From a virus, in the IMG/VR virus record IMGVR_UViG_3300006750_000074, positions 1 through 24,965 of that record: DNA of 24,965 nt; one strand, 5' to 3'. Every line of letters begins with the position of its first letter. Within the stretch, counting starts at the first letter, position 1. Position numbers and translations under genes: made by a program. A model generated the notes under the pieces. The model saw only the letters and a program-made list of their open reading frames with translations. It did no database searches and was not told the origin of the DNA. Positions 3,294-8,694 of this stretch are shown here, piece after piece.

Positions 3294-3617
3294 TTAAATA
3301 GTACCTGCCCTTTGGTTTGCCTGGAAGGTCCTCCAGACTTCTATTTTTAGTTTTGCGGCCTCCATTAGCCATCTTATTTCATCATCCTCCTTTATGGCAA
3401 TCTTATACCCTTCCAATAACTCAATATATTCCGGGTGGGCATAGGCCCATGCTTCTGATGCAGCTACAGTTCCCGGACCAGCTTTCCCAAACAAGATGGC
3501 ATGTTTTGATTTCCTGAAAGCCTCCAAATGTAGGCGGTCAGATCTAGCCTGAGCTGCCCTGCCTGCGTTGTCTCGTATAAAGTCCACGGCCTTCTCAATT
3601 TCGTCGTCTGAAATCAT
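3294..3617 (-). CDS. Helical phage protein of unknown function, 107 aa
   Basis: The sequence looks almost wholly alpha-helical, with a charged start (MISDDEIEKAVDFIRD), a central AEAWAYAHPEYIELLEGYK-type segment and EIRWLMEAAKLKIEVWRTFQANQR near the end. I recognise this as the style of a widespread small phage protein found next to recombination or SSB genes, with no established role known to me. It starts at an ATG overlapping the stop of the HNH gene and its own TAA overlaps a downstream ATG (TAATG), so it sits firmly in the coupled chain. No catalytic residues stand out. A DNA-binding or recombinase-accessory role is only a guess. Confidence 0.75.
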   Translation of the reverse strand: MISDDEIEKAVDFIRDNAGRAAQARSDRLHLEAFRKSKHAILFGKAGPGTVAASEAWAYAHPEYIELLEGYKIAIKEDDEIRWLMEAAKLKIEVWRTFQANQRAGTI

Positions 3618-3949
3618 TACAGAGTATCGGCTATGGCTTTCCGTATCGCATCCCGATCTACTTCGAGCACTCCCTTACGCATAGCCTCATCCAATGTACT
3701 GAATATGAAGTATATCTGATAATCTATTAAATTGGAAGTGTCGTGCATTTCTCGGTGGTGTTCAGGGCACAGTGGCATCGTGAACATATCACTGGCCTTG
3801 TACCCCATTCCCCCACTGAATGGTGCCATCCTACCCTTTAAATGATGGGCCACCACGTTCTCTTCGGATTTACAGTCAGCACAAGGGAGAGTCTGAACAA
3901 ACTTCAGGTACTCCTTGCTTTCCCAGCGCTTGTGCTTACTCAAATCCAT
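3617..3949 (-). CDS. HNH-type nuclease, Ref/DUF968-like, 110 aa
   Basis: From ATG 3949 the protein shows a treble-clef HNH centre: C23-x2-C26 (CADC), the His pair H35-H36 (AHHLKG), and C61-x2-HH (CPEHHREMH) with H69. The segment GGMGYKASDMFTMPLC between them is typical of the phage Rap/Ref/DUF968 group of recombination-linked HNH nucleases. It should be a zinc-structured, metal-dependent endonuclease acting on branched or displaced DNA. An upstream in-frame ATG (4009) would add 20 residues that coincide with the lipoprotein gene read in another frame, so I prefer the shorter form. It overlaps that lipoprotein by 14 bases. The fold call is good; the exact substrate is not known. Confidence 0.82.
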   Translation of the reverse strand: MDLSKHKRWESKEYLKFVQTLPCADCKSEENVVAHHLKGRMAPFSGGMGYKASDMFTMPLCPEHHREMHDTSNLIDYQIYFIFSTLDEAMRKGVLEVDRDAIRKAIADTL

Positions 3950-4061
3950 GTTTGGTGATTGAGGCCGTGTGTGCTGCCCCGTATTGCCCCACCTTGAGCC
4001 GGGTTGCATAGGAGCAACCCACTAACATCCCGATTGCTAACAACGTAATTAAAATTTTCAT
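3936..4061 (-). CDS. 41-aa lipoprotein in the early operon
   Basis: The ATG overlaps the stop of the ribonucleotide reductase gene (ATGA). The product is MK followed by a hydrophobic core (ILITLLAIGM) and a lipobox LVGC at residues 13-16; only about 25 residues would remain after signal cleavage. It should be lipidated and held at the inner or outer membrane. Small early-expressed phage lipoproteins are known to block superinfection, for example Llp of phage T5, which inactivates the receptor FhuA, so exclusion is an attractive but untested role. It is below common length cut-offs and easily missed. The reading frame and coupling are clear; function is inference. Confidence 0.7.
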   Translation of the reverse strand: MKILITLLAIGMLVGCSYATRLKVGQYGAAHTASITKHGFE

Positions 4062-5719
4062 ATATTACACACCCCTGATAAGCATTGTTCTTCACTGTTG
4101 TCTTCATAAACTACATCTCTCTTCTGTACAGCTTCCTCATATGGAATGGCTGAAATGGGTTGTCCCCCTCTTGATCCATCTGGATAGCAGGTCAGCCCTC
4201 TCAAACCGTGTGCATACTTAGCAACGATTTTAGAAAATCCCTCCACACTCCCTTCACTGTTCAGCTCCGTTCCCCAGGCTGGCAGGTTCAGGGTGCTTGA
4301 GATCGCATGGTCCACATACTTCTGTACGTCATACTGGAACTTGATACGCCTTTCGGGTTCAGCAGCAAGGTCTAGTGCGGTTTCAATTTTGTCTGGGGCG
4401 ATCCCTCCCTGGATAAGAGACTCAGCAGTGCCGTCAATACTAATCTGATACTTCCATTTGGTTCCATCCGTAAGGTAACGTCTGCGATAAGCAACTGCGT
4501 AAATGGGTTCTATTCCGCTGGTGGTTCCTGCGACGATTGAGATACTCCCTGTCGGGGCTATAGCTCTGTACCCTTTAGGCCTAGACACATAGAACCGATC
4601 ACAGTGTTCATTGGCTGCATGTTCTGATTCATCACGATAAACCTTGAGCCACTGCTTCAGTTCATCACACATACCATAGGGATGTCCTCTCTTCAGGAGC
4701 CACTCATGCAGTCCCATTAGACCTAGCCCGAGTCTCCTATTTTTCTCCCGAACCACTTTAACTTTTTCGTAGGGGAGGGTTCCTCGAAGCGTCCCACACA
4801 CCAGAAATTTTGAAGACACCTGCACCACTTCCTTAAACTCTTCAATCGTTTCGATGTTTGCCATGTTAACAGAGCATAAATTGCAAACGTCAGAATCATT
4901 TTCGCTGGAAATTTCTGTGCAGGCATTTCGAAGGGTTTCATTTTCTTTTTCTCCAAAGTTAAAACTAAATCCAGGTTCCCCTGTCATCAGGGCCTGTCGG
5001 CAGTTCTGCATAAATATATCCGGGAGCTGTTTGGTTTCCAGTTCCTTCAGAAACGCATCGTCATAATTCAGACTGATGTTCATCATGTCCAGTGGAGCAG
5101 GGTAGTTGAAGTCTTGCTCTTTGGCTTCAGAAATCATCATCCCACTGGTTCCTATCGGCATCATGTGCCAGTTCTTCAAAGTCAGAAAATGTTTTGCATC
5201 TTCGTGTTGCCAGTTTAGGCTCCCATACATAGCGGATCGTCTTGACCCTCCCTGCATCACGTTCCTGCCCACTTCGTTTATAGTGTACAGTAATGGAATC
5301 GGCCCCGAAGCAACACCTCCCGTTCGCCGTAGTTGACGTCCACTTGGACGGGCAGCACTTACATCTACTCCAATTCCACCGCCAGTCATAAGGCAGCTCA
5401 TCGCCCTCTGTGTGACGTTTGACCATTCTTCTCTTGTATCCTCCTCTAAACGTAACAGGTAACAATTGTTTATGAATAAAGCGCTTGGATCTCTCCCTGC
5501 GTAGTAGATATAACGTCCACCAGGGATCATCTTAAATTCGGTCATCACCCTAGCCAAGTGATCCTGATCGCTCTTGGCCATGATGTGGTGAGTTGTTCCG
5601 TTCCGGTTGCCACAGATGTCATTGACTATTGTGTTAACACGGTCAGGCCATTGCTCAAATTGGTTGGAGGCGTACTTCTGTCTGAAGACGGTCTCCCCGA
5701 GTGTGGTTCTAAAGGTCAT
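4058..5719 (-). CDS. nrdJ: Adenosylcobalamin-dependent (class II) ribonucleotide reductase, 553 aa
   Basis: The enzyme reduces ribonucleotides to deoxyribonucleotides for phage DNA synthesis in the cytoplasm. GGGAG seven bases before ATG 5719 sets the start; a longer frame to 5824 reads through another small gene. The catalytic NxCxE motif is NACTE (Cys267, Glu269). Cys86 (INNCYLL) and Cys308 (FLVCGTL) are the likely active-site redox pair, and the C-terminal CLSGVC (Cys546, Cys551) would be the shuttle pair. PTGSIS-type and glycine-rich (TGGGIGVDVS, GGSRRSAMYG) segments complete the barrel. No ATP-cone is present. No NrdB-like radical subunit is encoded in the window, and the sequence style resembles short class II phage enzymes, hence B12 dependence. 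Class is inferred, the reductase call is firm. Confidence 0.9.
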   Translation of the reverse strand: MTFRTTLGETVFRQKYASNQFEQWPDRVNTIVNDICGNRNGTTHHIMAKSDQDHLARVMTEFKMIPGGRYIYYAGRDPSALFINNCYLLRLEEDTREEWSNVTQRAMSCLMTGGGIGVDVSAARPSGRQLRRTGGVASGPIPLLYTINEVGRNVMQGGSRRSAMYGSLNWQHEDAKHFLTLKNWHMMPIGTSGMMISEAKEQDFNYPAPLDMMNISLNYDDAFLKELETKQLPDIFMQNCRQALMTGEPGFSFNFGEKENETLRNACTEISSENDSDVCNLCSVNMANIETIEEFKEVVQVSSKFLVCGTLRGTLPYEKVKVVREKNRRLGLGLMGLHEWLLKRGHPYGMCDELKQWLKVYRDESEHAANEHCDRFYVSRPKGYRAIAPTGSISIVAGTTSGIEPIYAVAYRRRYLTDGTKWKYQISIDGTAESLIQGGIAPDKIETALDLAAEPERRIKFQYDVQKYVDHAISSTLNLPAWGTELNSEGSVEGFSKIVAKYAHGLRGLTCYPDGSRGGQPISAIPYEEAVQKRDVVYEDNSEEQCLSGVCNI

Positions 5720-5876
5720 TAGGGTGCTCCCGTTGAGGTTTGGAGGGCCGATAAGAAGGCACGGGAGCCACACCTTCTGATTTCGGTTGTTTATGTTTGT
5801 TACACATAGGATAGAGGTTGTCATTCAACTGGACGCAACCCCTCACCTTGCAAACAATAAAGTGGTACGGTTTCAT
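5709..5876 (-). CDS. 55-aa Cys/His protein, possible zinc-binding mini-domain
   Basis: This short gene lies between the resolvase-like gene and the reductase. Its ATG overlaps the upstream stop (ATGA) and its 3' end overlaps the reductase start by 11 bases. The N-terminal half has Cys9, Cys14 and a CNKH (Cys25, His28) in the context CKVRGCVQ..LYPMCNKHK, spaced like a small zinc-binding treble-clef or ribbon. The C-terminal half is Pro/Ser/Arg-rich and probably disordered. The product could be a reductase or resolvase accessory factor or a nucleic-acid-binding protein; nothing identifies it further. The tight coupling on both sides supports a real gene. Confidence 0.62.
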   Translation of the reverse strand: MKPYHFIVCKVRGCVQLNDNLYPMCNKHKQPKSEGVAPVPSYRPSKPQREHPNDL

Positions 5877-7097: not shown

Positions 7098-7555
7098 TAT
7101 TTCTCCTTATAAACCCAATATCCAGAGTCTTCCAAAGTTCCTGGTTTCCCCCACTTCTTTCTCCAGGCCGGGGACCTAAACCACTGGTCATAGTATGGTT
7201 TTTTATTAGGATCTGCAGATGCTCCCATATACTTCCAGGATACTGTCTGATAACCCATCCCACCTGAATGCAGGTACGGTGCTGGCCCAGCCAGGGAAAC
7301 CTCCCTGTGTGAATTATAGTCTTGTCGCTCGGGAACCTCAACCCTTTGGAGGCTCTGATAGATAGAAAGAGCCTCTTCGAGAACTCTTTGTTTTTGTCGA
7401 GGGGGGGCTTTGGCCTTCTGTATCTGCTCTATCTTGCGTAGCGCCCTGTTCCTGATGTTGTCGATAGGAACAGAGCCTTGTTTCTCTTGTCTTACGAAGA
7501 CCTCCTTTCGGAGGCTTCGCATTGATTTAATATGGCGGTGTAGTCTATAATGCAT
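7097..7555 (-). CDS. Basic protein of unknown function at the head of the leftward operon, 152 aa
   Basis: The first half is very basic and helical (MHYRLHRHIKSMRSLRKEVFVRQ, NRALRKIEQIQKAKAPPRQKQRVLEEAL). The second half is aromatic and Gly/Pro-rich, with segments such as SGGMGYQTVSWKYMGA and YDQWFRSPAWRKKWGKPG. I recognise no family. The start is uncertain: no Shine-Dalgarno precedes the ATG at 7555 and a later ATG (MRSLRKEVF) is possible. It is the first gene downstream of a strong promoter-like sequence and is directly coupled to the helicase, so a helicase loader, primase-like or DNA-binding role would suit the position, but this is inference. Confidence 0.65.
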   Translation of the reverse strand: MHYRLHRHIKSMRSLRKEVFVRQEKQGSVPIDNIRNRALRKIEQIQKAKAPPRQKQRVLEEALSIYQSLQRVEVPERQDYNSHREVSLAGPAPYLHSGGMGYQTVSWKYMGASADPNKKPYYDQWFRSPAWRKKWGKPGTLEDSGYWVYKEK

Positions 7556-7658
7556 GGTAAGCAGTTCAGTGGTTAAAAAAAGAACCCTAGTCTCAAAAAA
7601 AAAAGACTCCAGTCGGCCTACCGTTAGTAAAATAACCTAGTGCTTTGATAAGACAATT

Positions 7659-7675
7659 ATATATTAAGTATATAT
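7659..7675. repeat. 17-bp inverted repeat, left arm
   Basis: ATATATTAAGTATATAT here is the exact reverse complement of 8302-8318, with the two arms enclosing about 626 bp. The arm contains the -10 box of the leftward promoter. It is A+T-rich, so chance similarity is not excluded. Confidence 0.55.
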
Positions 7676-7695
7676 TCTATGTGGAATTATTTCAA
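7667..7695 (-). promoter_or_regulatory. Sigma70-like promoter for the leftward replication operon
   Basis: On the minus strand TTGAAA (7695-7690) is followed by exactly 17 bases and TATACT (7672-7667), a five-of-six match in both boxes. It points at the gene starting at 7555, about 110 bases downstream. Host-polymerase transcription of the early operon is the natural reading. On the opposite strand TTGATA (7645-7650) and TATATA (7669-7674) form a weaker, overlapping rightward promoter candidate. Confidence 0.62.
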
Positions 7696-7770
7696 TAAAA
7701 AAAAATTACCAATTTACCTTTTACTTTCAAGTAGATAGGAGTTATTACTTAACTATATAGAAGAAATGGT

Positions 7771-8093
7771 TACTCGACCATCTAATTATGCAGGGTGAAG
7801 GTCCTGCCATCGAGTAGAAAGCTGAAGTGTACAATCGGGGACTTCAAGACGGTCCCTTTGAAACGCCGTTAGAGTGCCATGTAAAGGGCAGGCCTGGGCG
7901 GAGCCTCCATATACCGGGAATCCGTGGGTGATAATACGATTGGACACTACCAAGTTGGAAGCTACGACGTAGGGCACCTACGTCTTATTGATAGCTATGC
8001 TTATTCTCCATTACTAGGATCACCTTTTCCAGTACAGTGCACAAAGAAACAACAAAACAGAATAGAGCTGTCACTCGACACAGAAACCTAGTA
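7771..8093 (+). ncRNA. Candidate structured non-coding RNA element
   Basis: The stretch has no convincing gene but many nested complementary segments. TACTCGA/TCGAGTA (7771-7777 with 7810-7816) encloses GCAGG/CCTGC (7790-7794 with 7803-7807). CAATCG (7832-7837) can pair with CGATTG (7938-7943). GGGAC/GTCCC and ACGG/CCGT alternatives overlap and suggest a pseudoknot. TTGG/CCAA flanks ACACTA near 7940-7953. An 8-bp stem GACGTAGG/CCTACGTC with a GCA loop lies at 7966-7984, and TACTAGG/CCTAGTA (8012-8018 with 8087-8093) closes a further domain. Unpaired parts on the plus strand are purine-rich (GAAAGC, TTTGAAACG, GGGTGATAATACG), which favours that strand. I cannot match it to a known RNA class. 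Boundaries and strand are tentative. Confidence 0.35.
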
Positions 8094-8170
8094 GCCAAGA
8101 ATTCTATTTATAAACCGAAGAGGTTGAAGTTGAAGACGGCTTACAAGCGAAAAAAATACAATTTTTCTGA

Positions 8171-8240
8171 GGACTTTCCATCGTGACAGAGCATTTATGG
8201 GATTTTTCCATCGTGACGGTGGCTTTCCGGGATTTTTGAT
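8171..8240. repeat. 30-bp-period direct repeats (iteron-like)
   Basis: TTTCCATCGTGAC occurs at 8175-8187 and again at 8205-8217, exactly 30 bp apart. A third, partial unit begins at 8231 (GATTTTTGATGG, compared with GATTTTTCCATCG in unit two). Thirty bp is close to three helical turns, so a protein could contact all copies on one face. An A/T tract follows to the right. Confidence 0.55.
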
Positions 8241-8272
8241 GGCAGGCAGCCCAGAGGCGTCGATCCAGGGGT

Positions 8273-8335
8273 ACAAAAAAAAATCAAATTAACCTCTCGA
8301 GATATATACTTAATATATTATTAATATATAGTTAG
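8273..8335. other. A+T-rich tract, possible DNA-unwinding element
   Basis: A run of nine to ten A is followed by CAAATTAACC and then an almost pure A/T segment with repeated ATATAT and TTAATA. Next to the 30-bp repeats it has the layout of a replication origin (iterons plus unwinding element). This is inference from arrangement only. Confidence 0.35.
8302..8318. repeat. 17-bp inverted repeat, right arm
   Basis: ATATATACTTAATATAT is the exact reverse complement of 7659-7675. It carries TATACT in rightward orientation (8305-8310), but no good -35 box sits 17 bases upstream. Confidence 0.55.
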
Positions 8336-8374
8336 ATACCGGTCATAATCTAAGCTCAGATTGGCCCGGACCCC

Positions 8375-8396
8375 AGTGGTTACCAGGATAACCACT
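8375..8396. promoter_or_regulatory. Perfect 8-bp palindrome / hairpin
   Basis: AGTGGTTA and TAACCACT are separated by CCAGGA. No T-run follows on either strand, so it is unlikely to be a terminator. It could be an operator for a dimeric regulator or an RNA hairpin. It marks the point where the base usage changes to the CCWGG-rich style of the next region. Confidence 0.45.
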
Positions 8397-8503
8397 TCAG
8401 ATACTCCAGGTTAGCCGTTTCGGGGTATGGTAGGGGTTACTGTATGGGTTCAGATATCGGCCCGTCAATGGCCTTAGAATCGCCCGACCCCAGGACCAAA
8501 GAT

Positions 8504-8532
8504 AAAAAAATGGCCCCCGGTGAAGAGGGCCA
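8504..8532 (-). terminator. Rho-independent terminator of the DUF932 cluster
   Basis: On the minus strand TGGCCC and GGGCCA form a 6-bp GC-rich stem around a 10-base loop and are followed by seven T. It lies 43 bases past the last gene of the leftward accessory cluster, where transcription would be expected to stop. Confidence 0.85.
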
Positions 8533-8574
8533 AAAGGGAGGAAAGGCCAGGTATTTGCGCCCCCGGCTACGGCG

Positions 8575-8694
8575 CTAATCATTATTGCCGGTGATCCACT
8601 CCAGGATCTCGACCAGGACCCATATTACTCCGAGTACCAGTCCAGATGCAATGATTAAAGTCCAGAGTAGCCACCCTATGATACTAAGCCGCAA
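8575..8694 (-). CDS. 39-aa single-span membrane peptide (TTG start)
   Basis: Between the DUF932 gene and its terminator there is an open frame with a strong membrane helix: IIGWLLWTLIIASGLVLG continuing into VIWVLVEILEWI, ending in a short polar tail (TGNND). The only plausible start in frame is TTG 8694, which overlaps the last 11 bases of the DUF932 gene; an AGG lies nine bases upstream, so initiation would be weak or coupled. Topology suggests a small inner-membrane peptide. A second membrane peptide of similar size occurs upstream in the same cluster. The call depends on the hydrophobic pattern and the spacing between gene and terminator. Confidence 0.5.
   Translation of the reverse strand: MRLSIIGWLLWTLIIASGLVLGVIWVLVEILEWITGNND

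Follow-up and report, generated by a model that had tools for sequence, protein, structure and literature searches.

What is encoded between positions 7556 and 8574 of a marine phage contig, in an interval that a preliminary description took for a control locus holding a replication origin and a regulatory RNA? The contig, a virus record of IMG/VR (IMGVR_UViG_3300006750_000074) of 24,965 bases, is referred to below at its full length as the window. It carries genes for an SU10-type portal, Terminase_6, a ribonucleotide reductase, a DnaB/KaiC-like ATPase and DUF932. Up to about 11.0 kb the genes of the contig run mostly leftward, and the structural genes beyond run rightward. The product of 4058-5824 (minus strand) has the barrel of a large-subunit ribonucleotide reductase and matches the class II (B12-dependent) insertion domain weakly. 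The interval itself begins where a leftward gene (7555-7097) has its start, and its other neighbour is the leftward DUF932 operon. It is an island of a rightward RNA and a rightward open reading frame (ORF) flanked by leftward operons, and the layout first proposed, a control locus between two leftward operons, was thus right in outline.

Comparative evidence for the RNA

On comparative sequence evidence, the locus encodes a previously undescribed family of phage structured RNAs, and the plus-strand segment 7736-7990 is almost certainly a real structured RNA. The segment is matched by covariance model R1 (301.7 bits in cmsearch, as a member of the model), and the same place is recovered by a second model, R2. 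Close relatives, found through neighbouring genes and invariant DNA words, are 79-88% identical to the window across it. For the 152-aa gene next to it, identity to the window is about 70% in L089, L091 and L092, where the RNA is better kept; L086 is the exception, with 80.4% identity in the RNA versus 83.2% in the gene. A 43-nt hairpin insertion at a terminal loop in L091, together with single-base indels among the relatives, argues against coding in this segment. In the alignment of six close sequences, 94.8% of the cells of 49 base pairs are paired and 12 pairs are compensatory, a result equalled by none of 500 shuffles; pairing fell to 30-42% when the 3' partners were shifted by 1-3 columns.

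Model R1 also matched five divergent loci upstream of the terminase. R2 was built from four of these alone, and its own alignment holds nine compensatory pairs (0 of 500 shuffles as high). With E=2.5e-9, R2 finds 7756-7954 of the window, and because the window is absent from this model of distant relatives, we consider the recovery the strongest single test. Models R2 and R3 added L062, L059, L018, L105, L144, L130 and L139; a scan for conserved words added L178 and L180, the latter a near copy of L068, and both were confirmed by R3, while L147 joined the set through its alignment to L139. A terminase search of genome contigs yielded one distant relative. The RNA is now known in about 20 distinct viral contigs, at a constant place relative to a small ORF, and in every locus that includes the terminase it lies upstream of that gene on the same strand.

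The candidate structured RNA of the preliminary description was thereby confirmed by covariation rather than by energy. Of the checks proposed there, covariation in related phages gave compensatory pairs in both the close and the distant sets, whereas minimum free energies compared with shuffles gave z-scores of about 0 on both strands, with no excess; the core is partly pseudoknotted. This ordinary folding energy would suit a reading of the interval as intergenic DNA with chance features, to which we give next to no credence, since it is refuted by the comparative data: covariation, reciprocal model matches, synteny and the long-range contact K described below.

Searches elsewhere were negative. 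Scanning 1.37 Mb with R3 produced no match outside this locus up to E=2, BLASTn searches of isolate phages with the region and with two divergent RNAs as queries returned nothing meaningful, and covariance-model searches of Baldr, Vibrio 1.262.O, RHph_Y25 and tf, isolates related by their terminase, found no match above background. In cmscan against Rfam 15 (4227 families) no match reached its gathering threshold; permissive E-value searches that included the homologs gave a sub-threshold suhB match and chance-level matches, and no family. Neither ARAGORN nor Rfam found a tmRNA or tRNA match, and no tRNA lies near the RNA. Database searches and a search of open-licence papers turned up no described family corresponding to it.

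The suhB/mmgR sRNA match (RF00519) lies on the minus strand at 8497-8574 and scores 30 bits, with 41 as the gathering score, and 19.8 in L086. It resembles that family in a CCUCCCU stretch ahead of a terminator hairpin and differs in falling below the gathering score, with a model that also matches weakly elsewhere; it is probably just the terminator. The terminator reported at this end of the interval is real: it is an intrinsic terminator at 8532-8511 on the minus strand, within 8501-8532, that closes the leftward DUF932 operon, and a matching hairpin is visible in L086, L085 and L092. The operon includes an overlooked 39-aa ORF (8694-8575, minus strand) with a TTG start and a hydrophobic, membrane-type product, which overlaps the end of DUF932 and whose counterpart in L086, translated by hand, looks homologous.

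Architecture of the RNA

All elements described here lie on the plus strand. Domain A (7766-7817) combines hairpin A1, the A2 pseudoknot and an inner hairpin B. Hairpin A1 (7766-7769/7778-7781) has one compensatory pair, and its loop ACTCGA (7772-7777) pairs with TCGAGT (7810-7815), with three compensatory pairs, to form A2; for hairpin B (7790-7807), compensatory changes come from the distant set. Hairpin D and helix G both lie within helix C (7827-7837 with 7937-7947), where 6 of 11 pairs are compensatory in the close set and the distant set contributes three more. Hairpin D1 (7838-7842/7852-7856, within 7838-7862) has two compensatory pairs, and its loop may pair downstream as D2, where changes are one-sided only; the RNA would then contain two pseudoknots, that of domain A and, tentatively, that of D. 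Helix G (CGCC at 7864-7867 with GGTG at 7927-7930) was identified in the window by homology and inspection; in the distant set it is 100% paired, with three of its five pairs compensatory. Most of an invariant segment (7886-7928) lies inside helix G, as does GTGCC (7874-7878), the first strand of contact K.

The second strand of K is the loop GGCAC (7973-7977) of the 3' hairpin F (7966-7984). The two strands covary between families, with GUGCC/GGCAC in the window, AGUGAC/GUCACU in L068, GUGAUCG/CGAUCAC in L080, GUGAUAG/CUAUCAC in L018 and GAUGGU/ACCAUC in L144. Across 14 phages, matched partners scored 214 against a permuted mean of 163 (s.d. 9.9), and none of 20,000 permutations reached that value, a figure that is not a strict probability, since the permutation ignores the kinship of the loci and the segments were picked by eye. 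A four-pair hairpin E (TGCC/GGCA) was also considered; it is invariant, has no compensatory support and competes with K, which we favour. The family is defined by helices A1, A2, B, C and D1 with compensatory changes, by helix G and by the F-loop contact K, and all of these are present.

The downstream small protein and the mode of action

The interval had been described as holding no convincing coding region, which is wrong: a conserved ORF at 8037-8186 (plus strand) encodes a protein of 49 aa. It begins with GTG (VHKETTKQNRAVTRHRNLVAKNSIYKPKRLKLKTAYKRKKYNFSEDFPS), with no Shine-Dalgarno sequence seen. Between the window and L086, 24 codons of the ORF contain eight synonymous changes and one nonsynonymous change, and the ORF, which has homologs in more than 20 contigs, shows third-position and synonymous bias. 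The protein is rich in arginine and lysine. Weak matches link some of the 16 homologs searched to small phage proteins, four to phrog_4586 (best E=1.1e-6) and two to DUF7230 (best E=0.0014), and the window protein itself matches neither. Part of the small-protein family also matches, weakly, a protein of the T5-like Serratia phage Kamaji (L171, 2001-2075) whose gene adjoins one for an exodeoxyribonuclease, suggesting that the protein family may predate this phage group.

Two 30-bp-spaced repeats (8164-8193 and 8194-8223, plus strand) straddle the stop codon of the ORF. The direct repeats noted earlier are present, and they are not an iteron array, being two copies, 70% identical, that lie across the 3' end of an ORF. 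They are conserved in close relatives only. Stop-codon readthrough within them was considered and is unsupported. A different repeat of about 21 nt, TTCTCCATTACTAGGATCACC, occurs near the RNA in the window (8004-8027), L091, L089, L092 and L101 at differing positions, as tandem copies in L091 and L089 and in inverted orientation in L101, and resembles a small mobile or expanding repeat.

A -10-like box, AACTATATAG (7750-7760, plus strand), precedes the RNA, a weak one in the window but stronger at the equivalent place in relatives. In most loci, hexamers of the TATAAT, TATACT, TACTAT or TATTAT type stand 8-12 nt before helix A1, with poor -35 boxes. The transcript likely starts just ahead of A1, at about 7758-7765. 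No clear intrinsic terminator is seen at the 3' end of the RNA, after hairpin F, and so the RNA may simply run on into the small ORF. About 20 nt past the RNA, a short hairpin, GUUGUAAAUAAACAAC, is present in L068, L062, L059, L144, L130, L105 and L086 and absent from the window; it sometimes lies directly 5' of a start codon that has no Shine-Dalgarno sequence.

The RNA may instead be a cis-acting 5' leader controlling transcription or translation of the small-ORF mRNA: a riboswitch, a site at which the basic protein regulates its own synthesis, or an antitermination element close to the promoter. Where upstream sequence is present, the ORF nearly always follows the RNA on the same strand, often within 15-70 nt (about 15-60 nt in the closest relatives). 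The promoter-like box at the 5' edge of the RNA, the missing Shine-Dalgarno sequence and a strongly basic, hence plausibly RNA-binding, product point the same way. Several loci fit a leader poorly, however. L059 and L139 have a leftward gene between the two elements, as L068 and L062 probably do; another ORF comes first in L069 and L080; and L119 and L167 keep the ORF with no RNA detected. The fold is also more elaborate than those of known autogenous leaders. We hold a leader to be the less likely reading, a possibility to be entertained tentatively. L178, a close relative of L062, has no intervening leftward gene, so the order of RNA then ORF may be ancestral and the separation secondary. 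The extra small ORF of L069 and L080, present also in L147 between the RNA and the small basic ORF (MAKKKFD..W.AEEWLYTEF..GPIS..), possibly encodes a winged-helix protein.

On balance, we think it somewhat probable that the RNA acts in its own right, as a discrete folded molecule or ribonucleoprotein. The opposing gene that intervenes in L059 and L139, and probably in L068 and L062, together with the -10-like box at the first helix, favours autonomy over a simple leader. The comparative data show a plus-strand RNA of about 200-250 nt, with pseudoknot A at its 5' end and tentatively a second one in D, closing helix C and inner helix G, in which the loop of the 3' hairpin F pairs back into the G loop through contact K. 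On the preferred reading, this RNA would be transcribed from the -10-like promoter directly before the first helix and would work as a folded molecule, either a discrete phage RNA or a ribonucleoprotein, and the arginine/lysine-rich protein encoded just downstream would be its most plausible partner.

The origin question and known systems

Of the two halves of the earlier proposal, comparative evidence strongly upholds the structured RNA, and the replication origin finds no support in the window. No DnaA box with up to one mismatch was found in 7500-8600. Of the elements of a DnaA-type origin, the A+T tract alone is present in the window, and an iteron-type origin finds only the two 70% identical copies overlapping the ORF end. 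Cumulative GC skew has its minimum at about 11.0-11.7 kb, where transcription direction flips, and shows no extremum at 7556-8574. The A+T-rich tract itself was correctly noted: those 100-bp windows with the highest A+T content in the contig (80%) fall within 7631-7760. At 7655-7675 the tract is not conserved in relatives. Other loci have 63-76% A+T at this place. An inverted repeat, previously given as 17 bp, also proved real and measures 21 nt at 95% identity (strand-neutral), with its left arm at 7655-7675 in the A+T-rich tract and its right arm at 8302-8322; the longest in eight dinucleotide shuffles was 14. It is lineage-specific and not conserved in relatives. A role as the boundary of a mobile element was rejected, as relatives carry the RNA and the ORF without it.

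An arrangement resembling oriC occurs in L167, which has no RNA, at 3420-3640 directly before the homolog of the small basic ORF. It comprises the only two exact DnaA boxes of that contig (3562 and 3625), two near boxes and a 76% A+T tract, and, although a post hoc observation on one contig, it leaves an origin at this place some probability.

The RNA could also belong to a transcription-primed origin, in which A+T tract, promoter and folded transcript act together. The ColE1 RNA II preprimer is the comparison here. The contig's most A+T-rich stretch lies just upstream of the RNA, the equivalent place is A+T-rich in the other loci, and L167, which lacks the RNA, has its DnaA boxes there. Set against this, DnaA boxes, an iteron array and a skew extremum are all missing from the region in the window, the boxes occur in one relative only, and the A+T tract may be merely a divergent promoter region. 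We regard such an origin RNA as quite improbable. A broader idea is that the locus represents a new functional RNA class working with the basic protein, for example as a ribozyme, an RNA directed at the host or the scaffold of a ribonucleoprotein, or else a structured RNA that replaced DnaA boxes in origin function in this phage lineage; this we consider unlikely, yet worth stating.

Large, strongly conserved RNAs with several pseudoknots are uncommon, and their functions are often unusual. The present RNA sits at a fixed place in an uncultured marine phage group, has no entry in Rfam and is accompanied by a tiny basic protein, and its analysis yields a concrete model of the fold, together with alignments and a testable hypothesis on the protein partner. 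GOLLD and ROOL are phage-associated, and both, like OLE, are larger RNAs. The phage RNA resembles these three as an elaborate bacterial or phage noncoding RNA and differs from them in its smaller size, in giving no cmscan match and in having no tRNA nearby; they are large ornate structured RNAs whose biological roles are unresolved (PMC12286853). The manA and wcaG motifs, structured RNAs of marine T4-like cyanophages thought to be cis-regulatory (PMC2864571), are likewise found in marine phages and metagenomes, whereas here there is no Rfam match and a small basic ORF follows in place of a metabolic gene. Marine phage Melnitz carries a glutamine riboswitch and a permuted tmRNA (PMC9004378); it is comparable as a case of regulation by RNA among phages whose hosts are streamlined marine bacteria, and differs in that cmscan gives no match to riboswitch or tmRNA families here and ARAGORN finds no tmRNA.
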